Notes: a model not told the origin generated them from the letters alone. DNA of 64,000 bases from Spirochaetales bacterium (GCA_017614375.1 JAGABZ010000013.1:76414-140413); one strand, 5' to 3'. Positions 43,010 through 58,365 are shown, counted from the first letter of the stretch. Program-made: numbers and translations.

Positions 43010-45496
43010 TCAACCCATTATTACTTCGACGAGGTGCTTCTTTCCGTCGCAGAAGGAAAGCGGGATATAAGCGGTGCCTGTCTCCTTTCCGTCGACGAGG
43101 AGTCTCTTCACCCCGCGCTGGACGGCAGAGGGGTTGGAGTACTTGATGCTGAACTCGGTGTTCCTGAAGGTGCGCACCGCGGTGAAGGTCTTCCACGAGG
43201 CCGGGACGCACGGGTCGAGGATCAGGCCCTTGTAGTCCGGCCTGATGCCGAAGATGTTCTCGCAGAGCACCCTCTCACGGGTCGGAGCGGAGCCGGTGAG
43301 CCAGGTGTGGCCGGCGCGGCCGTATTCCTGGCTGGCGGGGCTGCAGACGTACTCGGGATAGACAAACGGCTCGGCGGCGTAGTTGAACGGATTGTCCTTG
43401 GCACAGACGGCCGGCAAGGTGCTGTAGAAATAGTGCCATGCGCGGTCGCCCTCACCGGCGTAGCAGAGGGAGGCGATGAACCAGCTCTCGGCGTGGCGGA
43501 AGAAACTGCCGTTCTCCTTCTTTCCGGGCGCGTTGCGCTTCCAGGCGGTGTAGTCCACAGGCGGCTTGCCCTTGGCCAGGGTGTAGTCGGCGGTGCACAG
43601 GGCGATTCCGCCCTTGGCCACGAGTTTCTTCTCTACCGCCTTGCGGCTGGTTTCGAACTGCTCGGGGGTGGCCAGGCCGCTGTACAGGGCCCAGGCGATC
43701 GGCTCGAGGAACAGCCTGCCGTCGGTGTCGGCGGAACCGACATCCTGGCTCTTGTCCTTGTTCGGTCCGAGCAGGCGGACAAAGGTGCCGGTGGAGTCGA
43801 CGCAGTACTTGCTGACGGTCTTCTTGATGAGAGCAGCCTTGGAGCGGGAATCGGCGGCCAGTTCGGGCTTTTTGATGAAGTCGCACAGTTCGGCGAAGTC
43901 GCTGAAGGCCTTGTACAGCTGCATGGCGGCCATGACCGAGCCGTGGTCCTCGAATCCGGAGAGGTCGTCGTTCCAGTCGGCGTCGAACATCTGCGGGATG
44001 CCGTCGTCGCTGTGGGTCCAGACCTGGCTGAGGGCCATCTGGCAGTGTTCGAAGATCGAGCCTTCGCGGGCAGGGCGCTGTTCCTTGGCGTCGGCGTAGG
44101 GAACGATTTCGTCAAGCAGCGAGGTGTCGCCGGTTTCCTTTACATACTCGCACACGGCATAGATGAACCAAATCGGATCGTCGCAGGCGTGGAAGTCCAG
44201 AGTTCCCGGGGCGGAGACGTAGAAGTTGTGGTAGGTTCTGCCGTCGGAGAACATCTGCTCGGCGATGTACTTGATAAAGGCGCGGGTCTTCGGGCTTTCC
44301 TGGGCAAGTCCTGCCAGAATGTCCTGCAGGATGTCCCTGAAACCGAAGCCGTACTCGAATCCGGAGTGGAAGCGGCTCTTCATCCTGTTGAGGTTGAGAA
44401 CCATGGCGCACTGGTACTGGATCCACTTGAACGATGGCCCGAAAAGCCTGTTTCCGGGTACATGGAAGCGCAGTTTGTCGAAATCAGCCTGCCATTCCTT
44501 TTTCACCTTTGCCAGCATCTTTTCCGCCGTCTCGGGGTTGGAGAGCTTGGCGCAGATGGAGCGGAGCTCCTTTTTGCCCTTGTGGTAGTAGTTGTCAGTG
44601 CTGCCGGCGGCGCTGAAGATGGTGAAGGTCGTCTCCCCGTTTGCCGGAATCGTGATGTCGAAGCACACGACCGAGAGCGAGCTGGTCGAATCCTGGGCGT
44701 TGGCGCAGGAAAGGACGCCGGTCTCGGGAGCCAGCGGGTCGGCCATCGTCCTGGTGTAGTGCCCGACGAAGTCCTCGTAGCGCATGCTGTACTGTACGAG
44801 CTTCTCGCTGGAGCCGTGCAGCAGGACCTTTCCGAAGAACCCGTAGTCGGCGTCCTCGTCGTCGTCGAACGGGATTCCGTAGCCGTTGAACCAGATCAGC
44901 GAGTCGAGCTTCTTGTCGTAGAAGCCGCCGGCCATCATCATCGAGTTGAAGCCTGAGAACTGCAGGGCGCGGGCGTCACCGACGTTGACCGGATTGACAC
45001 CGAAGACGCGGAGCTTTCTCTCCCTGTTCTCGGTGTTTTTGACATTGACCAGCTGGACCATCGCGTCGAACTCGTCGGGGATGAAGCAGCGGGTCCTGGT
45101 CTGAAGGCCCATGTACTCCGTCTCGCGGGTCACGCAACCGAAGGAATAGGTCGTGGTGAGCTTCTGGTCTTGGTGGAGCACCGGGTACCAGCAGTCGGTG
45201 AAGTACTTGCCGTTCTCGCTGAAGTAGATGAACGAACCGAGCTGGCGGCACTTGTACGGGTCCTCGTGGACAAATCCGTTGACCAGATCGCCCTCCTGGG
45301 TTCCGATTCTTGCAAACGAGGAACCGTTGTTGGTGATTCCCCAGCAGAGTGTCTTGGTGGGTTCCTGGTTGCGCCTGGTCTCAAGCATCAGCCAGGGCTC
45401 GCGGGTCATGTTTCCCGCCTCTTCCCTTATGCATACGTCACCGTTTCTGAGGAAGGAGAAATCTCCGTTCCGGCCTGTTTTTCCCTTTCTGTTCAT
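43010..45496 (-). CDS. GH94-family disaccharide phosphorylase (828 aa)
   Basis: Cleaves a beta-linked disaccharide with phosphate, giving a sugar-1-phosphate. The (alpha/alpha)6 barrel has the family blocks FEYGFGFRDILQD, DADWNDDLSG (proton-donor Asp at about residue 507) and AGHTWLTGSAP with YKGLILDPCVP. The N-terminal beta-sandwich does not resemble the standard cellobiose or chitobiose phosphorylase opening, so the specificity is open. No signal peptide: a cytosolic enzyme, fed by the importer. The ATG at 45496 follows GGGGG. The operator word TTTAACGTGAAA lies 21-34 bases upstream. Confidence 0.9.
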   Translation of the reverse strand: MNRKGKTGRNGDFSFLRNGDVCIREEAGNMTREPWLMLETRRNQEPTKTLCWGITNNGSSFARIGTQEGDLVNGFVHEDPYKCRQLGSFIYFSENGKYFTDCWYPVLHQDQKLTTTYSFGCVTRETEYMGLQTRTRCFIPDEFDAMVQLVNVKNTENRERKLRVFGVNPVNVGDARALQFSGFNSMMMAGGFYDKKLDSLIWFNGYGIPFDDDEDADYGFFGKVLLHGSSEKLVQYSMRYEDFVGHYTRTMADPLAPETGVLSCANAQDSTSSLSVVCFDITIPANGETTFTIFSAAGSTDNYYHKGKKELRSICAKLSNPETAEKMLAKVKKEWQADFDKLRFHVPGNRLFGPSFKWIQYQCAMVLNLNRMKSRFHSGFEYGFGFRDILQDILAGLAQESPKTRAFIKYIAEQMFSDGRTYHNFYVSAPGTLDFHACDDPIWFIYAVCEYVKETGDTSLLDEIVPYADAKEQRPAREGSIFEHCQMALSQVWTHSDDGIPQMFDADWNDDLSGFEDHGSVMAAMQLYKAFSDFAELCDFIKKPELAADSRSKAALIKKTVSKYCVDSTGTFVRLLGPNKDKSQDVGSADTDGRLFLEPIAWALYSGLATPEQFETSRKAVEKKLVAKGGIALCTADYTLAKGKPPVDYTAWKRNAPGKKENGSFFRHAESWFIASLCYAGEGDRAWHYFYSTLPAVCAKDNPFNYAAEPFVYPEYVCSPASQEYGRAGHTWLTGSAPTRERVLCENIFGIRPDYKGLILDPCVPASWKTFTAVRTFRNTEFSIKYSNPSAVQRGVKRLLVDGKETGTAYIPLSFCDGKKHLVEVIMG

Positions 45497-45516
45497 ACTG
45501 CCCCCGTAGTGTGCCG

Positions 45517-45530
45517 TTTTCACGTTAAAT
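45517..45530 (-). promoter_or_regulatory. LacI-type operator before the GH94 gene
   Basis: TTTTCACGTTAAAT on the plus strand, a near-palindrome centred on CG, 21 bases before the GH94 start. The word recurs inverted at 45632 and again at 57372. Confidence 0.6.
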
Positions 45531-45631
45531 GTGTTTTTCCGCACCGGCGGAAAAGCCGTGAAAAGTCGCCTTCGCGTCAATTTCAGGTCCCGCAAGACAT
45601 TAAATCGAAAACGCCCCCGAAAAAACCCTCG

Positions 45632-45645
45632 ATTTAACGTGAAAA
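45632..45645 (+). promoter_or_regulatory. LacI-type operator before the importer
   Basis: ATTTAACGTGAAAA lies five bases before TTGACT (45651-45656), the best -35 candidate for the binding-protein gene. The -10 box is not clear (TACACC at 45672 has a 15-bp spacing). Confidence 0.5.
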
Positions 45646-45738: not shown

Positions 45739-47184
45739 ATGAAGAAAACCTTTACTGTTCTTCTCGTCGTCCTGCTGATTGCGTCGGTCTTCATGGCCGT
45801 ATCCTGCAGCAAGGGCGAAACCACCGCCAAATCCTCGGCCAAGAAAGAGACCGTAAAGATTCAGGTGATGGTCGGATTCGGAACCGGAACGGATCCCTCG
45901 CAGATTGCCGTTCATGAGGAACTCCAGAACGAGTTCAACAGCACAATCGGCAAGGAAAAGGGAATCGAGCTCGAGTTCGTCACCGTCCAGTACTCCGACG
46001 CGGCTCAGAAGTTCACCACACTGCTCTCGGCAAAGATGGCCCCGGACATCTGCGGACCCGTCGGCGTCATGGGAGTTGCGAACTTCATCGACGAATGGGA
46101 AGACCTGACCCCGTACCTCGAGAGGGACAACTACGATCTCTCCGTTTTCGACAGTCAGCTTGTTGAGAGCAACCGTTACAACATCGAGGGTGAGTCCAAG
46201 CTCGTCGGACTTCCGATCGGCTACTACCCCTCCGCCCTGTACTACAACGAGGACATCTACGACAGAGCCGGACTGGAGTATCCGCCCACCGAATGGGGCA
46301 CTCCGGAATGGACCTACGACGCCCTGTACGAGCAGGCCAGGAAGATGACCATCGACAAGTGGGGACTGACTCCCGACGACGAGGACTTCGACGAGGACAA
46401 CGTAGTCCAGTACGGCTACGACGGAACCGACTGGAGCCCGTGGAGAGCATGGGTCGGAAAGTTCTTTGACGAGAACGGCAAGTCCGTCGCCCTCGGAATG
46501 ACCGACGACTTCAGGACCGCCACCATGAACAGCCCGGAGTGGATCGAGGCCTTCACCGAACTCGAGAGACAGCTCTATGTCGAGAAGGTCAGACCCAGAT
46601 CCTCCGCCGCGGCCGGCGCATCCCTGTTCGGCGACAACGACCCGCTCGGATCCAACAGACTCGGCGTCTGGGAAGTCTTCTCCTGGATGAGCTACGCCTA
46701 CGAGACTTGGGACGCCAACTTCACCTGGAACATCGGCGCAATCCCCTCGATGAACGGACACGTCGTTTCCGCGACCAACATCGACACATTTGTCATGACC
46801 AAGAGCGGAAACCACAAGGACGAAGCCTGGGAAGTCTACAAGTGGCTCTTCAGCGAAGACGTCTACAACAGGCTCAGCCACAACTACGGCAGCATCCCCG
46901 CCATGAAGTCCCTCCAGGACAAGTGGCTTGACGAGCAGAAGGCCGTCAGACCGAACATCAACTGGCAGGTCCTGCTCGACGCCGGCGAGTACGCCGACAA
47001 CCCGAACAACGAGTCCTGGGTTCCCAACTTCGGAGAGGTCTGGGATGCCATGGAATTCGCCATGTCCAGCATCATCGGCGGACTGTATGACTCTCCGGAG
47101 CAGGTTGCCGAGGAACTCAACGACGAGGTCCAGGGCTACCTGGATGAGTACTGGGCCGCTCAGGACGCCAAGGCCAGCAAATAA
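45739..47184 (+). CDS. sugar ABC transporter substrate-binding lipoprotein
   Basis: A family 1 (extracellular sugar) solute-binding protein of 481 aa. The signal peptide ends in the lipobox FMAVSC with lipidated C23. Typical blocks are DLTPYLERDNYD, the hinge region around GLPIGYYPSALYYNEDIYD and TKSGNHKDEAWEVYKWLFS near the C-terminus. Aromatic residues are plentiful, as expected for a carbohydrate site. GGAGAG stands nine bases upstream. It is followed by two permease genes; no ATPase gene is nearby, so a shared MsmK-type ATPase encoded elsewhere is likely. Confidence 0.94.
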   Translation: MKKTFTVLLVVLLIASVFMAVSCSKGETTAKSSAKKETVKIQVMVGFGTGTDPSQIAVHEELQNEFNSTIGKEKGIELEFVTVQYSDAAQKFTTLLSAKMAPDICGPVGVMGVANFIDEWEDLTPYLERDNYDLSVFDSQLVESNRYNIEGESKLVGLPIGYYPSALYYNEDIYDRAGLEYPPTEWGTPEWTYDALYEQARKMTIDKWGLTPDDEDFDEDNVVQYGYDGTDWSPWRAWVGKFFDENGKSVALGMTDDFRTATMNSPEWIEAFTELERQLYVEKVRPRSSAAAGASLFGDNDPLGSNRLGVWEVFSWMSYAYETWDANFTWNIGAIPSMNGHVVSATNIDTFVMTKSGNHKDEAWEVYKWLFSEDVYNRLSHNYGSIPAMKSLQDKWLDEQKAVRPNINWQVLLDAGEYADNPNNESWVPNFGEVWDAMEFAMSSIIGGLYDSPEQVAEELNDEVQGYLDEYWAAQDAKASK

Positions 47185-47196
47185 GCCGGGGGAAGT

Positions 47197-48123
47197 ATGG
47201 GTAAGAAAAAGGAAAAGAGGATAATCCCCCAGTCCGAGAGATACGCGCGGTTCGGATACTGGTTCATCCTGCCCTGGATGATCGGTTTCACCGTGTTCAC
47301 CTTCGGACCGATGGTATTCTCCCTGTATCTTTCGCTCACGGACTTCGCGGGGACCAGCCTCAGGGACGCCTCGTTCGTCGGTCTGGGCAATTTCAAAAGG
47401 CTCTTTACCGACAGCGAGACCTGGCACAGTCTGAAAGTCACACTGAAATTCGGAATGATGTCACTCCCGCTCGGGCTGGTCGCCGGCTTCCTGCTGGCGT
47501 ACCTCCTGAACATGAAGGTGCCCCTCATGAAGATGTGGCGAACAATCTTCTACCTCCCGGCGATGATAAGCGGAGTCATCGTCGCCACCCTGTGGCGCGG
47601 ACTCTTCGACGACAAGTACGGAATCATCAACTACCTGCTCGGACTGGTCAACATCAACGGTCCGCAGTGGCTGCTTGACCCGAAGTACATCCTCTACTGC
47701 TTCCTCTTCCTCTCCGTCTGGGGATGCGGAGGCGGCATGGTCGTTTACCTCTCGGGACTTCAGAGCATTCCGACCGCTCTCTACGAGGCGGCTGAGATCG
47801 ACGGCTGCAACAAGTTCCAGCAGCTGATCTTCATCACCATCCCGCAGATGACCCCGATTTTCTTCTTCAACATCATCATGGGTCTGATCGGAGCGTTCCA
47901 GTACTTCGCCGAACCGATGACGCTGGTAGGTGCCAACGGAGGCCAGGCAAAGGCGGCCCTGTTCTACAACCTGTATCTGTACAACCACGCGTTCAGGTAC
48001 AGGAACATGGGTTACGCCTCGGCACTGGCCTGGTTCCTGTTCGTAATCGTTCTGGTGCTGACACTGCTTGTGTTCAAGTCTTCGGAACTCTGGGTCTTCT
48101 ATGAAGCGGAGGTGAAGAAATGA
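47197..48123 (+). CDS. sugar ABC transporter permease, MalF-like (308 aa)
   Basis: Six TM helices with the inner-membrane component signature EAAEIDGCNKFQQLIFITIPQM, which docks on the ATPase (positions about 205-226). The N-terminus is a short basic tail (MGKKKEKRIIPQSER) before the first TM helix near 25-45. It overlaps the next permease gene by four bases (ATGA). The pair forms the heteromeric channel for the sugar delivered by the binding lipoprotein. Confidence 0.94.
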   Translation: MGKKKEKRIIPQSERYARFGYWFILPWMIGFTVFTFGPMVFSLYLSLTDFAGTSLRDASFVGLGNFKRLFTDSETWHSLKVTLKFGMMSLPLGLVAGFLLAYLLNMKVPLMKMWRTIFYLPAMISGVIVATLWRGLFDDKYGIINYLLGLVNINGPQWLLDPKYILYCFLFLSVWGCGGGMVVYLSGLQSIPTALYEAAEIDGCNKFQQLIFITIPQMTPIFFFNIIMGLIGAFQYFAEPMTLVGANGGQAKAALFYNLYLYNHAFRYRNMGYASALAWFLFVIVLVLTLLVFKSSELWVFYEAEVKK

Positions 48124-49205
48124 GCAGAGCACTTACAAAACAGCACCTGGCCAAACGGCGGACCATAATCGCCACAGTCCTGATTGTCCTGGCAGCCATC
48201 CTGATTTTGTATCCGGTTGTCTCGATGATCGGCGGCTCGTTCTCCTCCAAGCAGGCGTACAAGACGATTCCGTCCTCGATCGTCCCCCTGGAGGGAAAGG
48301 ACGTCCAGCTCAAAAAGCAGACAATCAAGGTCTCCGGAAGCGACTTCACCATCGCCGAAGGATCCTACAAGGTCTACTGGGTTGAAATCGACGGTGAGAA
48401 ACACGCCCTGGCCGATGTCGGAAAGGACAACGCCACCAAGCAGCGCATCTTCGTAAATCCGGACAACACTTCAGAGACGTACCTCGCCCCGGCGGCGATG
48501 CCGGACGACCGTGTCGTTCACATGGTCTTCCACTTCACCAACTACCCCGAGGCCCTGGAAAAGGCTAACTTCGGACGCTACATCCTGAACACCCTGTTCC
48601 TGGTTGTCGTCAACACGTTCGGAGCCCTGCTCTCGTCGTCTCTCGTCGCGTACGGATTCTCCAGGTTCCGGTTCAAGGGACGCAACGCCCTGTTCATCGT
48701 CCTGCTTTCGACGATGATGCTGCCGGCCCAGGTCTCCCTGATTCCGAGCTTCATCATCTACCAGAAGCTGGGTTGGTATAACACCTACCTGCCGCTGACC
48801 GTAGCCGCGTACTTCGCCTCCAGCCCGTGGAACGTATTCCTGATGAGACAGTTCTTCATGGGACTTCCGATGGAACTGGACGAAGCGGCCAAGATCGACG
48901 GATGCGGACCTCTGAAGATCCTGTGGAAGGTCATCGTACCCCAGTCGACCGCGGTGCTCCTGACGATCACCCTCTCGACGGCGGTGTTCTGGTGGAACGA
49001 CTACTACTACTCGCTGATCTACCTCCAGGACAAGGACAAGTACCCGGTCGCGCTGGGACTGCAGTCCTTCGACGCCCTGTATTTCCAGAGCAGCCACCTG
49101 AAGGCGGCAGCCACCGTCATGATGATGATTCCTCCGATTCTGATGTTCTTCCTCTTCCAGAAGTACTTCATCCAGGGAACCGTCATCTCCGGCGTCAAGG
49201 GTTGA
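48120..49205 (+). CDS. sugar ABC transporter permease, MalG-like, with extra loop (361 aa)
   Basis: The C-terminal two-thirds hold the usual five helices and the coupling motif DEAAKIDGCGPLKILWKVIVP. Between the first TM helix (about 20-42) and the second (about 155-175) lies a hydrophilic insert of roughly 100 residues; in most MalG-type permeases this periplasmic segment is under 40. The insert is beta-rich (KKQTIKVSGSDFTIAEGSY) and may contact the binding protein or the outer-membrane side. Co-transcribed with the other importer genes. Confidence 0.92.
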   Translation: MSRALTKQHLAKRRTIIATVLIVLAAILILYPVVSMIGGSFSSKQAYKTIPSSIVPLEGKDVQLKKQTIKVSGSDFTIAEGSYKVYWVEIDGEKHALADVGKDNATKQRIFVNPDNTSETYLAPAAMPDDRVVHMVFHFTNYPEALEKANFGRYILNTLFLVVVNTFGALLSSSLVAYGFSRFRFKGRNALFIVLLSTMMLPAQVSLIPSFIIYQKLGWYNTYLPLTVAAYFASSPWNVFLMRQFFMGLPMELDEAAKIDGCGPLKILWKVIVPQSTAVLLTITLSTAVFWWNDYYYSLIYLQDKDKYPVALGLQSFDALYFQSSHLKAAATVMMMIPPILMFFLFQKYFIQGTVISGVKG

Positions 49206-49208
49206 CAG

Positions 49209-50135
49209 ATGCAGAACCTGTACGGCGTCAAGCTTTACAGTCCGGCTTTCTGCGACAGCAGGAATCTGGATGCGATGGAGGAATGCGGCATAAACGCCGT
49301 GTTCCTCGGTCGCGATGCCCTGACGCCGTCGTTCTGCGCGGAATTGAACAAACGCGGGCTCTTCTGGAACATAGTCGAGCCCGTTTTCCTTCTTGACGAG
49401 CACGAAACCCGCCCCGCGGCAACCCTCGGCGACGGGTCGGCGGCGGTGGACGACTGGGTCAGGTTCGCCTGCCCGTCGGACGGCGCCCACATGGACGGTG
49501 TCCGTCGGAGGCTCGTTGACGACATCAGAACATACAACCCGCCGGGAGTCTCGCTGGACTTTCTGAGGTTCTTCCAGTTCTGGGAGACCACGGCCCCCGA
49601 CGCGGACCGCGCAGCACTGCCGCAGTCGTGCTACTGCGATGAATGCAGAAAACGCATGCAGGCCTGTGCCGACGCCGCCGAATGGAGGCGAAGCGTCATC
49701 ACATCCACCGCGGGCGAGCTGTCAGGGCTTGCCCGGGAAAACAAAAAAGGCATCAGGGTCGGAATCCATTGCGTGCCGTGGAAACGCGACATGTACGACG
49801 ATGCAATTAGGGATATCATCGGCCAGGACTTCACCGCCCTCGCCCTGGTTGCGGACTACCTGACACCGATGATCTATCATTTCATGATGCGCCGCGAAAG
49901 CGCCTATGTCCGGGAGTTCATCCTCGACATGGCCGCCCAGGGGTGCACCGAGATTCTGCCGTCCGTACAGGCCCGGCAGGTTTACAGACAGGACATAATG
50001 GACGTGCGCGAGTTCGCCGCCGTGATTGACGCGGCGCTGTCGGACCCTTCGCGCGGAGTATTGATATACAGATGGGAGGATCTGGCGGATGACCGGCAGC
50101 GGCTGGAAATCCTGAAATCCGCCCTGAAAGGCTGA
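49209..50135 (+). CDS. TIM-barrel-like protein of the glycan locus (308 aa)
   Basis: No signal peptide, so cytosolic. The pattern of strands ending in polar residues fits a (beta/alpha)8 glycosidase-like barrel: YGVKLYSP, INAVFLG, GLFWNIVEPVFL, GVSLDFLRFFQFW, IRVGIHCVPW, YLTPMIYHFM and GVLIYRWED. A CYCDECRKRM segment could bind a metal. Candidate acids are the Asp of SLDFL and Glu of NIVEP. I do not recognise the family. It starts three bases after the permease stop with AAGGG upstream, so it belongs to the importer operon and probably acts on the imported sugar. Confidence 0.7.
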   Translation: MQNLYGVKLYSPAFCDSRNLDAMEECGINAVFLGRDALTPSFCAELNKRGLFWNIVEPVFLLDEHETRPAATLGDGSAAVDDWVRFACPSDGAHMDGVRRRLVDDIRTYNPPGVSLDFLRFFQFWETTAPDADRAALPQSCYCDECRKRMQACADAAEWRRSVITSTAGELSGLARENKKGIRVGIHCVPWKRDMYDDAIRDIIGQDFTALALVADYLTPMIYHFMMRRESAYVREFILDMAAQGCTEILPSVQARQVYRQDIMDVREFAAVIDAALSDPSRGVLIYRWEDLADDRQRLEILKSALKG

Positions 50136-50151
50136 TTACAGAGGTTTGAGA

Positions 50152-51108
50152 ATGAAGAAGAGTTTCACCCGTATCGCTGCCGCCGCCCTGGCGGTGCTGT
50201 TGCTGGCAATCATCGCACTGACCGTTTCCTGCTCAAAGGATTCCAAAGGCGCCGCGGAAACGGCCAAGGTCGACTACGGCCCGAGCATTCCGTTCGAAAA
50301 GACGGCCAAAGTGACCTGGGCGGGCTGCAGATGCTCCACATACGGAATCAAGCCCTTCCCCTCCGCCGAGGAGTGGGATACATACGTGACCCGCATGGCC
50401 TCCGAGTACGAGGGCAGCATTCCGACCTTTGTCTGGATCGTCGGCTATGTCTCTGGAAACGGCGATGTGCAGAGCTGCACGATCAACTTCCCCCTCGAAG
50501 AAAAGATCCAGGGCGTCGTGACATTCCCCTACGACGAGAACGAGGACTTCCTGACCATGTGCGACGAAAAGGGCTACTCGGTCTGGCTGCAGGTCGAACC
50601 GGGCGACTGCGACGTGGTTTCCCTGGCAAAGGCGACGATGGAGCGCTACAAGAACCACAAGTCGGTCAAGGGATTCGGCGTCGATGTGGAGTGGCACAAG
50701 ACCTACGACACCGAGGGCTACGGAACAAAGATCACCGACGAACTGGCCCGGCAGCTTGACGAGGCAATCAAGTCGGTCGACCCGCGCTTTACCCTTTTCC
50801 TCAAGCACTGGGACATCAACTGGATGCCGGACGAGTACCGCTCCGATATAATCTTCGTAAACGACAGCCAGCAGTTCAAATCGCTCGAGGCCATGAAGAA
50901 ACTGTTCGACGGCTGGGCCAGATGGTTCTACCCCAACGCCGTTCTGTTCCAGATTGGCTACGAGGCCGACTACAACCTCTGGCGCAAGCTGGACAATCCG
51001 AAGAAGGACCTCGGTGATTACCTGGCGGAGGACATCCCCGACGACCAGCATGTGGGAATCATCTGGGTCGACTTCACCCTCAAGCAGGCGATGAAGAAAG
51101 GAAAGTAA
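50152..51108 (+). CDS. glycan-locus lipoprotein, family member 1 (318 aa)
   Basis: Start at ATG 50152, seven bases after GAGG; a TTG two codons earlier is less likely. Lipobox LTVSC gives a lipid anchor. The mature part shares its full length with the products at 51112 and 57394. Shared blocks in order: IVGYVS, a C-x-FPL stretch, GYSVWLQVEPG, VKGFGVDVEW, FLKHWD, FVNDSQ, FQIGYEADYN and GIIWVDFT. Strands ending in acidic residues suggest a glycosidase-like barrel, with the D-V-E of GVDVEW as candidate catalytic residues. I know no named family for it. Confidence 0.75.
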   Translation: MKKSFTRIAAAALAVLLLAIIALTVSCSKDSKGAAETAKVDYGPSIPFEKTAKVTWAGCRCSTYGIKPFPSAEEWDTYVTRMASEYEGSIPTFVWIVGYVSGNGDVQSCTINFPLEEKIQGVVTFPYDENEDFLTMCDEKGYSVWLQVEPGDCDVVSLAKATMERYKNHKSVKGFGVDVEWHKTYDTEGYGTKITDELARQLDEAIKSVDPRFTLFLKHWDINWMPDEYRSDIIFVNDSQQFKSLEAMKKLFDGWARWFYPNAVLFQIGYEADYNLWRKLDNPKKDLGDYLAEDIPDDQHVGIIWVDFTLKQAMKKGK

Positions 51109-51111
51109 GAC

Positions 51112-52134
51112 ATGAAAAAGATGGTTTTGTTTCTTATACTCTGCGTTTTTCTGCTGGTATCCTGCACCGGCGGCATCGAGCTTCCATGGAACAGACCGGA
51201 CAACGGTGATGACAACGGCGGAGGCGGGGGCACCCAGGAACCGGGTGGAACCGGCGCCGTGAAGTGGGCGGGAATCAGGTTTTCCTCATATGGAATGAGG
51301 TCCGCCTACGGAAAGGACAACTTCCCCGACAAGACCAAGACCTCCAACCTGATTTCCAAGATGCGGGGCTACTATGACGACAGCAAGGGAACCTGCATCC
51401 TCATAGTCGGTACGGTCAGCGAGTCCAACTGGACCTGCAGTCTGGATTTCCCGCTGAGCAAGGAAATCGACCTGGTCTACGGCAGCAAGAATGACAGATA
51501 TGAGGATTATCTCACCGCTTTCGACAATGCCGGCTACTCCGTCTGGCTCCAGGTCGAACCGGGCAACGCCGACCTTGTGGCCCTGGCAAAGGAAGTGATG
51601 ACCCACTACAAGAACCACACCTGCGTCAAGGGATTCGGAATCGACGTCGAGTGGTACAGGCCCGCCGGAACCGACGGCTACGGCACCAAGCTCACCGCGA
51701 CCGAGGCCAGGAAAGTCCTGACCGAAATCCGGAAAATCAACTCCGGCTACACCCTGTTCATAAAGCACTGGGACAGGAGATGGCTGACCGACGGAAAGTC
51801 CGCCGACGAGGGCATCATCTACGTCAACGACAGCCAGAACTATCTGGGCCTGGACGAAGACGACGAAATCACCACCGCGCTGATCAACTCCTTCTCCACC
51901 GAGGAACTCAACGAGGCCGCCGAGGACATGATCGACGACTTCTCCAGATGGGCCAAGGCTTACTACCCCAGCCCCGTCATGTTCCAGATCGGATACGAAA
52001 AGGACACGCCCTTCTGGAAGCGGCTGTACACCAACCCCGCCAAGGGCCTGGGCGAGGCAATCGCCGCCGGCATTCAGACCAAGAATGACATCGGCATCAT
52101 CTGGGTGGACTTCACCGTCAACCAGGTTCTGTAG
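51112..52134 (+). CDS. glycan-locus lipoprotein, family member 2 (340 aa)
   Basis: Signal peptide with lipobox LLVSC, then a Gly/Asp-rich linker of about 25 residues (NGDDNGGGGGTQEPGG), then the same domain as its neighbour, with FGIDVEWYR, FIKHWDRRWL, YVNDSQN and FQIGYEKD. Compared with member 1 it has a longer N-terminal linker and an insert of about 20 residues after VNDSQN. The gene lies three bases after the previous one, so the pair is a tandem duplication in the same operon. Outward-facing sugar binding or hydrolysis is inferred. Confidence 0.75.
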   Translation: MKKMVLFLILCVFLLVSCTGGIELPWNRPDNGDDNGGGGGTQEPGGTGAVKWAGIRFSSYGMRSAYGKDNFPDKTKTSNLISKMRGYYDDSKGTCILIVGTVSESNWTCSLDFPLSKEIDLVYGSKNDRYEDYLTAFDNAGYSVWLQVEPGNADLVALAKEVMTHYKNHTCVKGFGIDVEWYRPAGTDGYGTKLTATEARKVLTEIRKINSGYTLFIKHWDRRWLTDGKSADEGIIYVNDSQNYLGLDEDDEITTALINSFSTEELNEAAEDMIDDFSRWAKAYYPSPVMFQIGYEKDTPFWKRLYTNPAKGLGEAIAAGIQTKNDIGIIWVDFTVNQVL

Positions 52135-52149
52135 GAGCGCTGCCGGTCT

Positions 52150-53154
52150 ATGGTAACGATAAAGGACGTAGCCCAACTCGCGGGAGTCTCCCATACCACC
52201 GTTTCGCTGGCGATACGCGGCTCAAAGAGCATCACGCCCGAAACGAGGGAAAAGGTCCTGAAGGCGGCGCGGCAGCTTAACTATCACCCCAACCATCTGG
52301 CCCGTTCCCTGGTGAACGGAAAGACGGGCGTAATCGGCATCGTCGCCAACTTCTTTTCCAGCACCTTTGAAATGGAGATTCTCAAGGGCATCGAGCAGAG
52401 CGTCCACTCGACCGAGACCGACTTTTCAATCAACCTGTTCTCGACCCTGGGCAAGAACGACGAGGTCCTGACCGACATCTGTCTGGGCCGCCACGCCGAC
52501 GGGGTCATCCTGCTTTCAATCAGCCCCTCTGCCGAAATCGTCAAGCTTTTCAACGACAACAACTGTCCGATGATAGTGATTGACGAACAGGCCGAGGGAG
52601 CCATTGAAATCGTCATGGACAACTTCCACGGGGCCTACATGGCGACCGAGCACCTGATCAACTCCGGCCGGAAGAATCTTGCCCTGGTCCTCGGCCGGGA
52701 CAACCAGCGCGAGCTCGGCCTGTCTCAGAGCGAGAGGAAAAACGGCTTTCTGCAGGCCCTGAAGGACCACGGCATGAGCTTTGATGACCGGAACACCTTC
52801 TACATCGAGGACTATTACTTTGAGGAAGGCCAGGTCGTCTTCAAGCGCATGCAGCGCTACCGCGGGAACATCGACGGGATATTCTGCGCAGCCGGCGATA
52901 TGGTGGCCTCAGGCATGGTTCTTGAGGCGAAAACCGAGCACGTCAGGATTCCGGAGGACATCGCAATCATCGGGTACGATGACATAATCTCCTCCTCGAT
53001 GATCGACCCGCCGCTGACAAGTATCCGCCAGCCGCTCTTCCAGATCGGAAAGAACGGCTACGCCAGGATGGTGAGGCTCCTCGAGGGAACCGAGGAGTAC
53101 AAGCCGAACAAATTCGTATATGAACCGCAGTTGATAGTCAGAGGTTCTGTCTGA
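52150..53154 (+). CDS. LacI-family transcriptional regulator
   Basis: A 334-aa DNA-binding repressor-type protein. The helix-turn-helix (IKDVAQLAGVSHTTVSLAI, residues 4-22) is followed by the hinge helix NHLARSLVNGKTG, which inserts at a central CG in operators of this family. The rest is a periplasmic-binding-protein-like sugar sensor ending in IIGYDDIISSSM and TSIRQPLFQIG. Genes at both sides are glycan-use genes, and the CG-centred word TTTCACGTTAAA stands at three of the locus promoters, so it is the likely regulator. AGGAG is about 11 bases upstream. Confidence 0.94.
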   Translation: MVTIKDVAQLAGVSHTTVSLAIRGSKSITPETREKVLKAARQLNYHPNHLARSLVNGKTGVIGIVANFFSSTFEMEILKGIEQSVHSTETDFSINLFSTLGKNDEVLTDICLGRHADGVILLSISPSAEIVKLFNDNNCPMIVIDEQAEGAIEIVMDNFHGAYMATEHLINSGRKNLALVLGRDNQRELGLSQSERKNGFLQALKDHGMSFDDRNTFYIEDYYFEEGQVVFKRMQRYRGNIDGIFCAAGDMVASGMVLEAKTEHVRIPEDIAIIGYDDIISSSMIDPPLTSIRQPLFQIGKNGYARMVRLLEGTEEYKPNKFVYEPQLIVRGSV

Positions 53155-53185
53155 CAATCTGCGTTTCGCATAAAAGGAGTAGAAA

Positions 53186-54277
53186 ATGAAGAGATTTCTG
53201 ACCTGCATTCTGGTGGCAATGATCGCCTTTTCCGCCTTTGCCGCAGTCAACGTCACAATCGACACAATCACCATGTTCTCCGGCGCCGGAGATCCCCAGG
53301 GACTGATCCAGAAGGGTTTCGTCATCGGTGGCGCCGACGAGGCAATCATGGCCGACATCAACTTCAGCCTCAGCAGCAGCTACGGCTCGGCTCTGGTCAA
53401 CATCCGCGCTGAAATGCCCTCCAGCAAGTACAACGGAGCCAGCGTCTCCATCCACGGATGGGAAGTGAACGCCAAACTCAACGACTGGGCAACCCTTTCT
53501 CTCGGAAACACCGCCGTCGAGCTGTTCAACGAGAGCATCAACTGGGAACCCGTCTTCGGAGCCGGTCTGTTCGAGTCGATGCGCAACAGGCTGTATTTCG
53601 ATCTCGACGTCGGTTCGGACATCGAGGTCATCGTCGGAATCTCCCCGAAGAACTACGCGACCAACCCGCTTAAGACCCTGCAGCTCGCCGCCATCTACGA
53701 TATTCCGATGCTGATGAAGGTCGCCGCCGAGTTCTGGATGGTTCCGGACAACCTCTGCCAGACGATGTACGGCGACGGAGAAGTCAAGGCCATCAGCGTC
53801 CAGCTGGACTATGTCGAAATCGAGAACACCAACCTGCTGCTCGGATACACCGCCTTCCTCGCTGAGGGTGCCCTGGTCCAGAACAGAATCGACCTGCTGG
53901 CCTCCTATACTCCCGAAGGATTCGAGTTCGAGGTTTACGACGCCCTGCTTCTGCGCATGTACGCCGGAACCCACCCGGGTAACAGATTCGCCGCAAAGGC
54001 CACCTATTACGCCACCGAAAAGCTCGCCCCGTCGATCAGCTTCAACTGGTTCAAGAACTACGGCTACAACGGCGAGTCCGGTTTCGCATGGTCCGACTGC
54101 CAGCTCTGCGACGCCATCGCCAACGGGTCGCTGTTCGTAATCGAGCCGCGTCTGGGCTTCACCGTTTCGGACAACACCTCCGGTTACCTCGGAGCACAGT
54201 TCAAGTTCGATGCGACCCCGGAAGCCGCCAGCAAGTCTTTCTGGTCCCTCCAGCTCGGCCTGACCGCTACATTCTGA
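53186..54277 (+). CDS. predicted outer-membrane porin-like protein (363 aa)
   Basis: Sec signal peptide ending at FAAV. The mature protein is built of alternating strands with Asn/Gly turns and ends in LQLGLTATF, with the terminal Phe of outer-membrane barrels. About 14-16 strands can be sketched, as in porins. Its position between the LacI gene and the phosphatase in the glycan locus suggests a channel for the oligosaccharide. AGGAG six bases upstream supports the start. No recognised family name. Confidence 0.7.
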   Translation: MKRFLTCILVAMIAFSAFAAVNVTIDTITMFSGAGDPQGLIQKGFVIGGADEAIMADINFSLSSSYGSALVNIRAEMPSSKYNGASVSIHGWEVNAKLNDWATLSLGNTAVELFNESINWEPVFGAGLFESMRNRLYFDLDVGSDIEVIVGISPKNYATNPLKTLQLAAIYDIPMLMKVAAEFWMVPDNLCQTMYGDGEVKAISVQLDYVEIENTNLLLGYTAFLAEGALVQNRIDLLASYTPEGFEFEVYDALLLRMYAGTHPGNRFAAKATYYATEKLAPSISFNWFKNYGYNGESGFAWSDCQLCDAIANGSLFVIEPRLGFTVSDNTSGYLGAQFKFDATPEAASKSFWSLQLGLTATF

Positions 54278-54297
54278 GTTCCTCCAGGGGCTGAAAG

Positions 54298-55890
54298 ATG
54301 AAAAGATTCTACCGAAGCCTTTGCGTCTTCCTGATTGCCTTGGCGGTCGTCTTCGCCTGCTGCTCGTGTACCGAGAAGCAGGTGGAGATCGAGAGGATAA
54401 CGCTGAACGTCACGACCAAGACCCTGGTCTCCGGCGAGTCGTATCAGCTTGTGGCCAAGGCCTATCCGGAAAACGCCTCACAGGAATTCACCTGGACGTC
54501 GTCCAACACCAGCTACGTCACCGTCTCTGAAACCGGCCTGATCAAGGGCAAGAACACCGGCAACGACACCTCGTCGGGCATCAAGGTCACCGCGACCAGC
54601 AAGTCCGACCCGACCAAGAAAAAGGCCTGCACAATCTATGTCGAAGTCGCTCCGCCTGCCACCTTCACCGTTTCCAAGACTGGTATGCTCACCGCCGGTC
54701 CCGGACAGGACGCCTCCACCAGCGCCGTAATTTCCTGGCACGCCGCCACCCCCGATTCGGTCCTTGAGTACACGACCTACGAGGACACCGGATACGCGGC
54801 CAAAACCACCCAGGAGTGCCCCGGAACCATTTCCACGGCCGACTTTGCAGACACGGCCACCCACTACCGTTGCAGAGTAGTGCTCACCGGCCTGACTCCC
54901 GACACCTCCTATCGGTACCGCATCGTCAACGGTACCAGCACGACACAGGAGGGCTACTTCAGGACCGCCGGAAGCGACACGACCTTTCAGTTCATGTGGC
55001 TGAGCGACCTGCACACCCCGAAGGGCAGTTCTTCCTACGTCTCCAGAGTCTCCGAGCTGATCAACTTCGCCAACGCAAAGGACGGGGTCGACCTCGACTT
55101 CTGCCTGTTCACCGGCGACATGGTCAACAAGGGCCAGATATACAAGCACTGGAACTACTGGTCTGACAGCGGGCTGATGAGGAACATGACCTACGCGTTC
55201 CTCAGCGGAAACCACGACTACTATCCGTACGGCACGAAGGACCGCAACAGCAACGCCTATTTCAAGGATGTGGCGGCCTATCCGTACAACAACACCCAGG
55301 CCTCCACTGCCGTTCTGGACAGCAACTACTGGTTCATCTGGAACAGGGTCATGTTCGTCTGCGTCGATAACTTCACCAGCGAGGGCGCTACCACCAGGAC
55401 CCAGAGCGGAAGCAGTGTTTCCGCCCAGGTAGCCTGGGTCCGGGCCGTGGTCAACGCCAATGCGGGCAACTTCGACTATCTGGTCTACGCCCAGCATCTG
55501 CCGTTCTTCATCAACGACGAGCCGTGCAGCTATGGCCAGTACTCCGACTGGCGCGCCCTCTTCGACGAGCTGAAGGTTGACTTCGCCCTGTCCTCGGACG
55601 AGCACGCCTACACCCGCACAAAGCCGCTGAAGAACAACGCCGCCGTAGCCCTGACCGACGGAAAGGTCACCGACGGCACTGTTTACGTCACCAGCTTCGA
55701 GACCGAGGGCTCCAAGGTCGACACACCGACCAACAAAGCCTCGGCCTCTGCCAAATACGCTGCCTACTACGGCGGCGGCGGTGTTGCCGGTGTCTACTTC
55801 ACCGTCACGCCCGAGGAGATGACTCTGCACCTCATCGGAGCCAACGGCACTGAGTATGACACTGTCACAGTCCTGAAGAAGACCCGCTAG
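54298..55890 (+). CDS. lipoprotein purple-acid-phosphatase-like phosphoesterase (530 aa)
   Basis: Lipobox region VFACCSC. A bacterial Ig-like (BIG2) domain spans about 30-115, then the fibronectin-like N-terminal domain of purple acid phosphatases (about 120-220), then a calcineurin-like metallophosphoesterase domain: LSDLHTP, TGDMVNKG, SGNHDYYP and VYAQHLPF. The last motif, normally GHxHxY, is SDEHAYTR, where Asp replaces the first His. That His is a metal ligand in most members, so the second metal site may be altered. It is predicted to be anchored in the envelope and to remove phosphate from an extracellular ester. Ends in a terminator. Confidence 0.88.
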   Translation: MKRFYRSLCVFLIALAVVFACCSCTEKQVEIERITLNVTTKTLVSGESYQLVAKAYPENASQEFTWTSSNTSYVTVSETGLIKGKNTGNDTSSGIKVTATSKSDPTKKKACTIYVEVAPPATFTVSKTGMLTAGPGQDASTSAVISWHAATPDSVLEYTTYEDTGYAAKTTQECPGTISTADFADTATHYRCRVVLTGLTPDTSYRYRIVNGTSTTQEGYFRTAGSDTTFQFMWLSDLHTPKGSSSYVSRVSELINFANAKDGVDLDFCLFTGDMVNKGQIYKHWNYWSDSGLMRNMTYAFLSGNHDYYPYGTKDRNSNAYFKDVAAYPYNNTQASTAVLDSNYWFIWNRVMFVCVDNFTSEGATTRTQSGSSVSAQVAWVRAVVNANAGNFDYLVYAQHLPFFINDEPCSYGQYSDWRALFDELKVDFALSSDEHAYTRTKPLKNNAAVALTDGKVTDGTVYVTSFETEGSKVDTPTNKASASAKYAAYYGGGGVAGVYFTVTPEEMTLHLIGANGTEYDTVTVLKKTR

Positions 55891-55915
55891 GCTCCTTTTC
55901 AGGTCATCGATTTCC

Positions 55916-55957
55916 AAGGCCGCAACCTCTCTCGACGGGCTGCGGCCTTTCCTTTTA
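55916..55957 (+). terminator. intrinsic terminator after the phosphatase
   Basis: AAGGCCGCA (55916-55924) pairs with TGCGGCCTT (55941-55949), followed by a T-rich tail. It closes the importer-to-phosphatase transcription unit. Confidence 0.75.
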
Positions 55958-55974
55958 ACTGTGCTGTACCCGGG

Positions 55975-56098
55975 TTTTCAGAATAAAACCCGGGAATTTG
56001 CCCTTTTATTCTGAAATTTCCGAATAGAGGCTCCGATTTTTGCGGTTTATTCTGAAAATTCAGAATAAAGCCCCTGATTCCGGCCTTTTATTCTGAAA
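55975..56098. repeat. three 41-bp hairpin repeats, word TTCAGAATAAA
   Basis: Units at 55975-56016, 56017-56057 and 56058-56098. Each is TTTCAGAATAAA or a variant, about 16 GC-rich bases, then TTTATTCTGAAA. The middle unit has a decayed left arm (TTTCCGAATAGA). The array lies between convergent genes, beside two ordinary terminators, so it is not needed for termination. No gene is seen in this 300-bp gap. Confidence 0.8.
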
Positions 56099-56144
56099 CT
56101 CCCGGAATCTGCCCTTCCCCAGCCCGGGGGCGATTCTTGCCGGA

Positions 56145-56178
56145 CAAAAAAATCCGGGAGTTTGCGCTCCCGGATTTA
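56145..56178 (-). terminator. intrinsic terminator of the CE4 gene
   Basis: On the minus strand AAATCCGGGAG, loop CGCAAA, CTCCCGGATTT then a T run; an 11-bp perfect stem 20 bases after the stop. Confidence 0.88.
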
Positions 56179-56197
56179 TGCAACTTAAAGGTGAGAC

Positions 56198-57355
56198 TCA
56201 GATCTTCAGCCCGGCTTCAGGGTCGCTGAGCATTTCGACCATCTGCTTGGCGGTGACCACCTGTACATCAGGCTTGGTGAGGATGTACTCGAGCAGTCTG
56301 CGGACGAAGTTCCTTCTCTCCGGGCCGTGGGCCTTGAGTCTGGCCGGGTCGGCGTCTTCGAGGTCGTACTTCTCGTATTTCTCCGAGTAGATGTCGGTGT
56401 GGAATCCGAGGAAATACGGACAGCGGTTGCCCTCGTAGTGCAGGTCAAAGGTATAGGCAAAGGTGGCAAAGGCATCGTCTTCGGACATGAAGAACTCAAA
56501 CCATGCAGTCCAGTCCATGCCGGTGACCTTTCCGGTTTCCTTGTCGAAGTACTGGTTCTCGGCGGCCAGGCGGTCCCGCAGGCCCGGCTTGGTGCCGTAC
56601 TTCTCGCACAGCTCGTCCGGCGGGGCGATGATGACATACATCGGCAGGGCCCACAGACCGGGGTGCTTGCCTATAAGCGGCTCGCTGGCGTAGAAGTCCT
56701 CGGCGACGAAGGTCTCTCCGGGGCTGCCGTTGTCCAAGGTGTACGGCCACAGTTCGTTTGAGCCGTGCCTGTCGTTCTGCCAGCCCTCCTCGACAGCAGC
56801 CTCGAACTTGAGTCCGAGCTTCTGGACCGAGGTGAAAACATTGTCGTTGTACTCGAGGTACGGGGTTCTGAAGCCCACGATCTTCGAGCGCTCCAGGCCG
56901 ATGCCGGAGTCCTTCTTGGTCGGGTCATAGGGCTTTTCCAGTACGCTGTAGCACTTCTCGTGCTCGGCCATCCAGTCCTCTGTGCTCATGATGGGGACTC
57001 TCTTGGCGGGCACGTCGTCCCAGTCCACATCAAGTCCGTGGGGGTGGGAATAGGTATGCATCTCCAGCTCGTGACCTTCCTCCAGGGCGCGGTGCCAGAT
57101 CTGCTTGACGAAGGAGTCGTCCTCGAGGGGGTTGTTGTCGATGTTGTTGCCCTTGAGGAAGAATGTCCCGAAAATCGGGCTTCCGTCATGGTTCTTGTGC
57201 TCGGCGAACAGATCGAGGATGAACTTCATTCCGCCTTCACCGCCTGAACCGGGAAGCCCGGAATAGGCGTTGTCATCAAAGGTGAAGGCGACGAGCTGCT
57301 TTACTTGCTTCGGCTCAAGGCCGAACGGGGGTTTATCGGAAGGTATTCTGTTCAT
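56198..57355 (-). CDS. polysaccharide deacetylase-like protein, CE4 (385 aa)
   Basis: The NodB-type barrel: motif 1 AFTFDDNA (D27, D28), motif 2 H100-x3-H104 in EMHTYSHPH, and motif 3 GFRTPYLEYN. Metal-dependent removal of acetyl or similar groups from a sugar polymer is the family activity. There is no signal peptide, so it is a cytosolic enzyme, unlike most secreted CE4 proteins; the substrate may then be an imported oligosaccharide. The start at 57355 is seven bases after the -10 box and lacks a good ribosome site. It has its own operator-bearing promoter in the locus. Confidence 0.86.
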   Translation of the reverse strand: MNRIPSDKPPFGLEPKQVKQLVAFTFDDNAYSGLPGSGGEGGMKFILDLFAEHKNHDGSPIFGTFFLKGNNIDNNPLEDDSFVKQIWHRALEEGHELEMHTYSHPHGLDVDWDDVPAKRVPIMSTEDWMAEHEKCYSVLEKPYDPTKKDSGIGLERSKIVGFRTPYLEYNDNVFTSVQKLGLKFEAAVEEGWQNDRHGSNELWPYTLDNGSPGETFVAEDFYASEPLIGKHPGLWALPMYVIIAPPDELCEKYGTKPGLRDRLAAENQYFDKETGKVTGMDWTAWFEFFMSEDDAFATFAYTFDLHYEGNRCPYFLGFHTDIYSEKYEKYDLEDADPARLKAHGPERRNFVRRLLEYILTKPDVQVVTAKQMVEMLSDPEAGLKI

Positions 57356-57361
57356 GCCCCA

Positions 57362-57390
57362 AGCATAACACTTTCACGTTAAACAATAAA
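57362..57390 (-). promoter_or_regulatory. promoter-operator of the CE4 gene, leaderless
   Basis: On the minus strand TTTATT (57390-57385), 17 bp, TATGCT (57367-57362). The operator word TTTCACGTTAAA (57372-57383, plus-strand reading) fills the spacer. Only six bases separate the -10 box from the ATG. Confidence 0.7.
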
Positions 57391-57393
57391 CTG

Positions 57394-58365
57394 TTATTTC
57401 CCTTTGTCGATGACATCGGCCAGTGTGAAGTCCACCCAGATTATTCCCTTGTCGTTGTCCGTGTAGCAGGCATCGAGAATTGCCGCGCCGAGCTCCTTTG
57501 CCGGGTTCTCCATTTCGCCCCAGATACCCTCGTCGGCCTCGTAGCCGATCTGGAACATCACCGGGCAGGGGTCGAAGTAGAATGCCCAGGCGGAGAACTC
57601 CTCCTTCATCTTATCCAAAGCCGACGAACTTCTGCCGCCGCGGAAGCCCTGGCTGTCGTTGACGTAAATCAGCCCGTCCATCGCGTCGGGAAGCCATTTG
57701 TTGTCCCAGTGCTTGACGAATACCGTGTAGTCGGGGTTGACCGCCCTGACCGCCTCCAGAACCTGTGCAGCGAGGTCCTCGTCCAGCTTTGTGCCGTACC
57801 CGCGGGTTCCGGCGGGTTTGTACCACTCCACGTCGATTCCGAAGCCCTTGACGCAGGGGTGGTTCTTGTAGTGGTTCATGACTTCGGTTGCCAGGGCCAC
57901 GAGGTCGGCGTTGCCCGGCTCGACCTGGAGCCAGACGGAGTAGCCGGCTTTGTCGAAGGCCTTGAGGTACGCCTCGTAGAAGTCCTCGTCCTTTCCCTGG
58001 ACCATGTCGATCTCGTGCGAGAGGGGGAAGTCCAGACGGCAGGTCCATTCGGACTCGCTGACGACTCCGACTATGAGGATGAAGGTTCCCGTGCTGCCTT
58101 CGTAGCGGTCAGCCATCTTTTGGGCGAAGCCGGACATGGCTTTGACCTTGGGGAACTTGCCCTCTCCGAAACTGTCCTCCATGCCGTAGCCGGACACCCT
58201 GATACCGGCCCACTTCGCGCCGTCGGCAGGTTCGGTATCGACCTGCCCGGCATCGCGGGAGGCGGAGGAATCGGAAGTCTTTGACCCTGCGCAGGATGGA
58301 ATCACAATCAGAGATGCCAGAAGCAGGCACACAACAAACAGAGACAGGATACTGCGGTTCTTCAT
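57394..58365 (-). CDS. glycan-locus lipoprotein, family member 3 (323 aa)
   Basis: Third paralogue of the family at 50152 and 51112, here on the other strand beside the CE4 gene. Lipobox IVIPSC with lipidated Cys near residue 24. Shared blocks: AGIRVSGYGMEDSF, GYSVWLQVEPGN, VKGFGIDVEWYK, FVKHWDNKWL, YVNDSQGF, FQIGYEADEG and GIIWVDFTLADV. ATG 58365 follows GAGG by five bases; a longer frame reads back into the DUF2442 gene. Function unknown; the invariant D-V-E and acid/aromatic blocks suggest a carbohydrate-active enzyme or binding protein of a new family. Confidence 0.75.
   Translation of the reverse strand: MKNRSILSLFVVCLLLASLIVIPSCAGSKTSDSSASRDAGQVDTEPADGAKWAGIRVSGYGMEDSFGEGKFPKVKAMSGFAQKMADRYEGSTGTFILIVGVVSESEWTCRLDFPLSHEIDMVQGKDEDFYEAYLKAFDKAGYSVWLQVEPGNADLVALATEVMNHYKNHPCVKGFGIDVEWYKPAGTRGYGTKLDEDLAAQVLEAVRAVNPDYTVFVKHWDNKWLPDAMDGLIYVNDSQGFRGGRSSSALDKMKEEFSAWAFYFDPCPVMFQIGYEADEGIWGEMENPAKELGAAILDACYTDNDKGIIWVDFTLADVIDKGK

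Follow-up and report, generated by a model that had tools for sequence, protein, structure and literature searches.

Three paralogous genes for putative lipoproteins beside a sugar importer

The DNA analysed is a 64,000-nucleotide stretch from a Spirochaetales bacterium, hereafter called the window. It contains an operon encoding an ABC sugar importer, a divergent GH94 phosphorylase gene, and a polysaccharide deacetylase gene (Table 1). Three putative lipoproteins encoded here had been predicted to be paralogues. We found the three open reading frames at the expected positions and use FAM as a working name for the family. Identities across the mature domain are 46 and 48%, when copy 1 is compared with the other two, and 60%, for copies 2 and 3. 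The motifs GYSVWLQVEPG, VKGFG(V/I)DVEW, KHWD, VNDSQ, FQIGYE and GIIWVDFT, quoted in the original prediction, occur in all three. The proposed arrangement was also correct: two copies are in tandem in the importer operon (genes five and six, numbering from the binding-protein gene, with gaps of 3-16 nt) and the third is beside the deacetylase gene. Note that upstream TTG codons, at 50146 and 58467, give longer versions of the reading frames; the ATG starts were used instead. Inspected by eye, the N-terminal sequences include LTVSC, LLVSC and VIPSC, which are relaxed lipoboxes ending in Cys. These lipoprotein-like signal peptides are the evidence for a predicted envelope location.

Table 1. Genes and candidate operator sites of the locus, with positions counted from the first letter of the window
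Feature	Position	Strand	Remarks
Phosphohexomutase, GlmM-like	41221..43005	-	
GH94 phosphorylase	43010..45595	-	Divergent from importer; longest ORF; DWND motif aligned to solved phosphorylases
Operator palindrome	45518..45529	.	GH94 side
Operator palindrome	45633..45644	.	Directly before TTGAC of importer promoter
ABC sugar-binding lipoprotein (SBP_bac_1)	45739..47184	+	
ABC sugar permease, UgpA-like	47197..48123	+	
ABC sugar permease, UgpE-like	48120..49205	+	
c1, second GH-like TIM barrel	49209..50135	+	Closest in fold to Cwp19 and the C-terminal domain of PgaB (GH153)
FAM copy 1	50152..51108	+	Subfamily A; putative lipoprotein with TIM-barrel domain; ATG start 50152
FAM copy 2	51112..52134	+	Subfamily B; starts 3 nt past copy 1; ATG start 51112
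LacI-family regulator	52150..53154	+	Candidate operator owner
c10, exported protein	53186..54277	+	Kept in 4 loci
Secreted phosphoesterase, calcineurin-like / purple-acid-phosphatase type	54298..55890	+	Big_2 domain
Polysaccharide deacetylase	56198..57355	-	Pfam Polysacc_deac_1, 2.8e-12
Operator palindrome	57372..57383	.	In 38-nt gap upstream of deacetylase gene
FAM copy 3	57394..58365	-	Subfamily B; upstream of deacetylase gene, same strand; ATG start 58365

The same gene order, with GH94 opposite a run of binding protein, two permeases, c1, FAM, and often LacI, recurs in about ten spirochaete genomes. The DWND motif of the GH94 protein matches solved cellobiose phosphorylases in an alignment. 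The protein is too divergent for its substrate to be read from sequence. The true start codon probably lies on the downstream side of the operator at 45518. The c1 protein has no Pfam or NCBIfam match, carries conserved residues and gives a model with pLDDT 92; its gene precedes FAM in 16 loci. Since no signal peptide was seen, c1 is probably an intracellular glycosidase. We ruled out that FAM is a recent duplicate of c1, because profile-profile comparison found no relation. The GH94/mutase arm and c1, like the operator sites and the GH18 link described below, go beyond the original prediction.

FAM is an undescribed family

The three proteins had also been predicted to form an unrecognised family. 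As expected, all Pfam and NCBIfam models scored below threshold and the PDB contained no sequence relative. Judged against these resources, FAM is an undescribed family. Profile searches for an existing GH or DUF family behind it likewise produced no hit above threshold. Specifically, among 48 FAM members, none matched PF00704 (GH18) or the Pfam GHL10 model. The gathering cut-off of PF14488 (DUF4434) was not reached, the best E-value being 0.023, with a weak echo in 3 of the 48. Across 100 genomes of the phylum, PF14488 gave partial matches only, all sub-threshold.

A search of the whole genome (1.54 Mb, 17 contigs) revealed no fourth copy. By tblastn, relatives were located at 35 further GTDB loci, with E-values down to 4e-149, so homology is far above chance. 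In total, about 60 homologues were found in Spirochaetota, Anaerolineae (Chloroflexi), Aminicenantes, Kiritimatiellae and Ignavibacteria. The carriers are mainly metagenome-assembled genomes of rumen Spirochaetales and Treponema (GTDB contigs). The family is present in 9 of 394 sampled genomes (~2%) from the class of the source organism, and in 12 of 249 (5%) from the class of the Chloroflexi genome G457. Viral contigs were searched and FAM was absent from them.

Judged by sequence, FAM is two old subfamilies. Orthologues of copy 1 elsewhere are 59-73% identical and come first in tandem pairs; copies 2 and 3 are more like the second members of such pairs and the copies that stand alone. In some homologues the N-terminus carries CarboxypepD_reg or Flg_new repeats, or the C-terminus a Por_Secre_tail, additions that mark secretion or a surface location. 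One contig binned as Prevotella (L024), possibly a mis-binned spirochaete contig, has an operator of spirochaete type as well as two fusions of CarboxypepD_reg to FAM. Separately, a divergent FAM subfamily, of 20-23% identity, occurs in another spirochaete genus (L095, L096, L097). There, it adjoins a sigma-factor-like gene and an M23 peptidase gene is nearby, hinting at a cell-wall role in that genus.

A predicted TIM barrel with a conserved acidic pocket

The original prediction described the fold as barrel-shaped. The AlphaFold2 model, made for the copy 3 domain with 48 sequences, agrees. Briefly, it is an eight-stranded (ab)8 TIM barrel, with pLDDT 97 and pTM 0.93, and glycosidase-type barrels lead the structure comparison. 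The best Foldseek matches were GH5, endo H and Cwp19, at E-values of 1e-5 to 1e-4, with PbGH5A at the top (E 6.7e-6); b-glucuronidases and chitinase ChiC also appeared. Cwp19 headed the VIA-align ranking with Z 17.0 (238 residues aligned at rmsd 3.4), a lead of 2 units over the fold that followed. Lower scores were obtained for BT_0435 (4h41, DUF4434; Z 15.0) and GH5 (Z about 14.8), and XIP (9k1m) and class III chitinase folds were also among the matches. Note that the Foldseek TM was about 0.5, with rmsd of 6-8 A, and such scores are typical of TIM barrels generally, which counts against the interpretation preferred below. A fold this common is, alone, no proof of function.

The way conserved residues are distributed is stronger evidence. 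In TIM-barrel enzymes, the active site is at the C-terminal strand ends. Of 34 FAM positions that are at least 95% conserved, 18 fall within the 40 strand-C-terminal positions of the model (p 1e-8) and 3 within the 39 opposite-end positions. Invariant acids after strands had been predicted. In the model, these are E100 after b3, D129 and E131 after b4, D188 after b6, and D263 after b8. Across 62 distinct FAM domains, there is no substitution at E100, D129, K169, H170 or W261, and a single one, to Asp, at E131. Within the main family, 20 pocket positions are identical in 56 of 59 domains, even though these share 37-65% identity and include paralogues from the same genome. The divergent subfamily retains E100, D129, K169 and H170, with others altered. 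A conserved acidic pocket is, on this evidence, predicted at the catalytic face of the barrel.

The end of b4 reads K124-x-x-G127-x-D129-x-E131. This is the place of the catalytic D-x-E in GH18 enzymes and endo H, and D129-x-E131 stands there. The end of b7 reads Q223-x-G225-Y226, with no Glu in the main family. We infer that E131 would act as general acid/base, with D129 beside it, and that E100, K169, H170, D263 and the b8 residue W261 would line the pocket.

A putative LacI-type operator motif common to several transcription units

Alignment of GH94-importer intergenic regions, from 12 loci, exposed the palindrome TTTMACGTKAAA. This is LacI-type and typically adjoins a -35 box. The window contains three sites, where 0.24 are expected, and none of 100 shuffles reached three, using a near-identical pattern with one mismatch allowed. 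Genome-wide, there are five perfect sites. Four are credible: two between importer and GH94, one at the deacetylase gene, and one at the promoter (C16:18008) of a GH18 operon on contig C16 (C16:18008-30160; L139, L075). The fifth, at C13:172449, has the sequence GTTTCACGTGAAAC, adjoins gyrase and parA/parB-like genes, and was discounted because it is probably a parS. It has a one-mismatch partner at 172517, so that GTTTCACGTGAAAC and GTTCCACGTGAAAC lie between parA-like and gyrA-like genes (L140) and mimic a LacI-type operator.

The C16 operon encodes CBM4_9-type and Flg_new-repeat lipoproteins, alkaline-phosphatase-type proteins, a GH18 lipoprotein, a 383-aa protein and a hexapeptide acyltransferase. 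For the phosphatases and the CBM, the domains were identified in genome G425, in its homologous operon. Relatives have the operator in equivalent places. It precedes the deacetylase gene at two loci (L007, L008), the GH18 operon in G425 and G421, and a phosphoesterase-GH18-phosphatase-deacetylase run at another (L017). For stand-alone FAM genes, the operator is 46-58 nt upstream in G421 (L030/L163) and about 33 nt upstream in G435 (L038/L162). The latter genome also has two operators between the deacetylase gene and a CBM/Flg_new-type operon with a start resembling that of the GH18 operon (L161). G464 and G465 also have the motif close to FAM, but the reversed control motif turns up there too (3 and 7 times), so statistical support from these two genomes is weak or absent. 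No operator stands 5' of copy 3, for which the nearest site is past the stop codon.

The putative operator motif is, in summary, common to importer, deacetylase, GH18 operon and stand-alone FAM genes. Given its position and conservation, the palindrome may be bound by the adjacent LacI protein. If so, one genetic switch appears to control FAM, importer, deacetylase and chitinase. Note that G421 and G425 encode a second LacI paralogue, beside an MFS transporter gene, with its own perfect operator upstream (L157, L159).

FAM and GH18 are fused, and co-occur

In two Anaerolineae proteins, GH18 is N-terminal to FAM in one polypeptide (Pfam E 6e-45 and 8e-44). The one that we translated has an intact DGVDMDWE motif. 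Since the two fusions are 79-82% alike, we count them as one event. Across 101 genomes of the source organism's taxonomic family, GH18 is in 7 and FAM is in 7, with 6 in common (Fisher p 4e-8, from related genomes that are not independent). A sub-threshold-like FAM match in G339 (E 9e-4) was left out of this count. At class level (394 genomes), GH18 is found in 8 of 9 FAM genomes and 105 of 385 others (p 2.6e-4, uncorrected for relatedness), although the total of 113 GH18 genomes includes many short partial matches. The same GH18 subfamily is also close to the FAM locus at L017 and L010. In G421 and G425, the GH18 operon is on the contig that carries FAM, about 18-20 kb away. In the genome studied here, the GH18 protein encoded on C16 carries the catalytic motif. 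Note that FAM is not a recent duplicate of the apparently co-regulated GH18, since profile-profile alignment by hhalign against the GH18 proteins of this genome showed no relation (probability 0.4%).

FAM is probably involved in breakdown of N-acetylglucosamine polymers

The original prediction was of a glycosidase or sugar-binding protein. Taken jointly, this is supported by the regulon, the fusion, and the co-occurrence with a GH18 chitinase. Our preferred interpretation is narrower, and we consider it fairly probable: FAM would be a surface, GH-like enzyme of one TIM-barrel domain that cleaves a GlcNAc-containing b-glycan, beside the apparently co-controlled GH18. Points against it, beyond the general nature of the barrel scores, are the incomplete GH18 signature, the Gln after b7, the missing operator 5' of copy 3, the divergence of GH94, the non-independence of the genomes counted, and the fusions being a single event. 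In this way, the lipoproteins probably help the cell to break down chitin-like (N-acetylglucosamine) polymers. We propose the following order of steps. Outside, GH18 and FAM, with the phosphatases, the CBM lipoprotein and the deacetylase, would process the polymer. The ABC importer would take oligosaccharides into the cell. These would be split by the GH153-like barrel c1 and, by phosphorolysis, GH94. The GlmM-like mutase would then convert the sugar 1-phosphate, feeding metabolism. Chitin is one candidate for the polymer, and others are peptidoglycan and GlcNAc polymers that are PNAG-like or phosphate-bearing. Plain chitin does not explain several secreted phosphatases in a glycan regulon and, since these are co-regulated, the polymer is possibly phosphate-bearing.

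FAM could, instead, bind glycans without cutting them, the barrel capturing GlcNAc oligomers and passing them to the importer. Chi-lectins and XIP-type GH18 folds do bind without cutting, and the XIP and class III chitinase folds among our structure matches fit such a role. So do the many invariant Trp residues, the several FAM copies per genome, and the position of FAM close behind ABC permease genes here, and directly behind one in a different spirochaete family (L092, L093). Even FAM fused to GH18 could be a binding module. Nevertheless, no main-family copy, paralogues included, has lost E100, D129 or E131, and such strict retention of a buried acid/Lys/His cluster would be unexpected in a lectin. 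We regard pure binding as unlikely, if worth taking seriously.

A role in the cell's own wall is improbable. Here, FAM would be a peptidoglycan hydrolase or lytic transglycosylase, used for envelope remodelling rather than nutrition. This draws on Cwp19 being the best structural match, and on the M23 peptidase gene close to the distant subfamily (L095). Set against it, an importer, GH94 and mutase, under a common LacI-type operator, mark a catabolic regulon. Furthermore, presence in 7 of 101 family genomes is too patchy for a housekeeping wall enzyme. We give very little credence to a non-hydrolytic barrel enzyme, such as a Lys-dependent lyase or aldolase, an epimerase, or a transglycosidase, acting via K169 and H170 of b5. 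Both residues are invariant (62 of 62), and a Lys at the barrel mouth is reminiscent of class I aldolases, but in the known ones it is on b6. Similarly, an epimerase fold is low in the Foldseek list, but glycosidases dominate it, and a putative surface lipoprotein with a GH18 fusion and a chitin-type regulon argues for other chemistry.

Within our preferred interpretation, of a surface enzyme acting beside GH18, a bolder version can be stated tentatively. FAM might found a glycoside hydrolase family that is new and has a catalytic arrangement peculiar to it (b3 Glu, b4 DxE, b5 Lys-His), cleaving a GlcNAc polymer, possibly phosphate-bearing, that GH18 alone cannot finish. More broadly, a family that spans five or more phyla, and for which the databases searched gave no model, is now linked to a specific, testable proposed function. 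A compact regulon is also defined in rumen spirochaetes, comprising importer, GH94, mutase, deacetylase, GH18, phosphatases and two undescribed barrel families. If the proposal is true, this would be a new enzyme for chitin-type or related GlcNAc polymers, of consequence for rumen carbon turnover and of use as a carbohydrate tool enzyme.

Comparison with known systems

GH18 chitinases and endo H share with FAM the TIM barrel, D-x-E at the b4 end, and a Trp on b8. In addition, the Anaerolineae fusions join GH18 to FAM, and in the genome studied here the two appear to be under common control. However, FAM keeps only D-x-E of the GH18 signature DxxDxDxE and has the extra invariant residues E100, K169 and H170. 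Enzymes of GH5 and clan GH-A have in common with FAM the barrel and an acid after b4, which E131 fits. Conversely, clan GH-A has its Glu nucleophile after b7, where FAM has Q223. Hence, the FAM pocket fits neither GH18 nor clan GH-A. DUF4434 (BT_0435) likewise shares the TIM barrel, but every FAM member is far from significance.

Cwp19, a GHL10 lytic transglycosylase of C. difficile, is the best structural match to FAM. Even so, Cwp19 and the C-terminal domain of PgaB, a GlcNAc-polymer hydrolase domain, are much closer to c1 (Z 25-26). The pocket residues of Cwp19 also differ from those of FAM (Cwp19 residues from PMC5765458).

Literature searches on this combination gave no relevant paper. 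The nearest parallel in gene set and logic is with chitobiose and cellobiose phosphorolytic uptake loci, which combine an ABC importer, GH94 and a sugar-phosphate mutase. To these, the system described here adds two undescribed barrel families, phosphatases and a surface GH18. Judged by the libraries searched, we conclude that FAM is new as a family but familiar in kind, consisting of TIM-barrel carbohydrate-active proteins in an uptake regulon that is also of a familiar sort.
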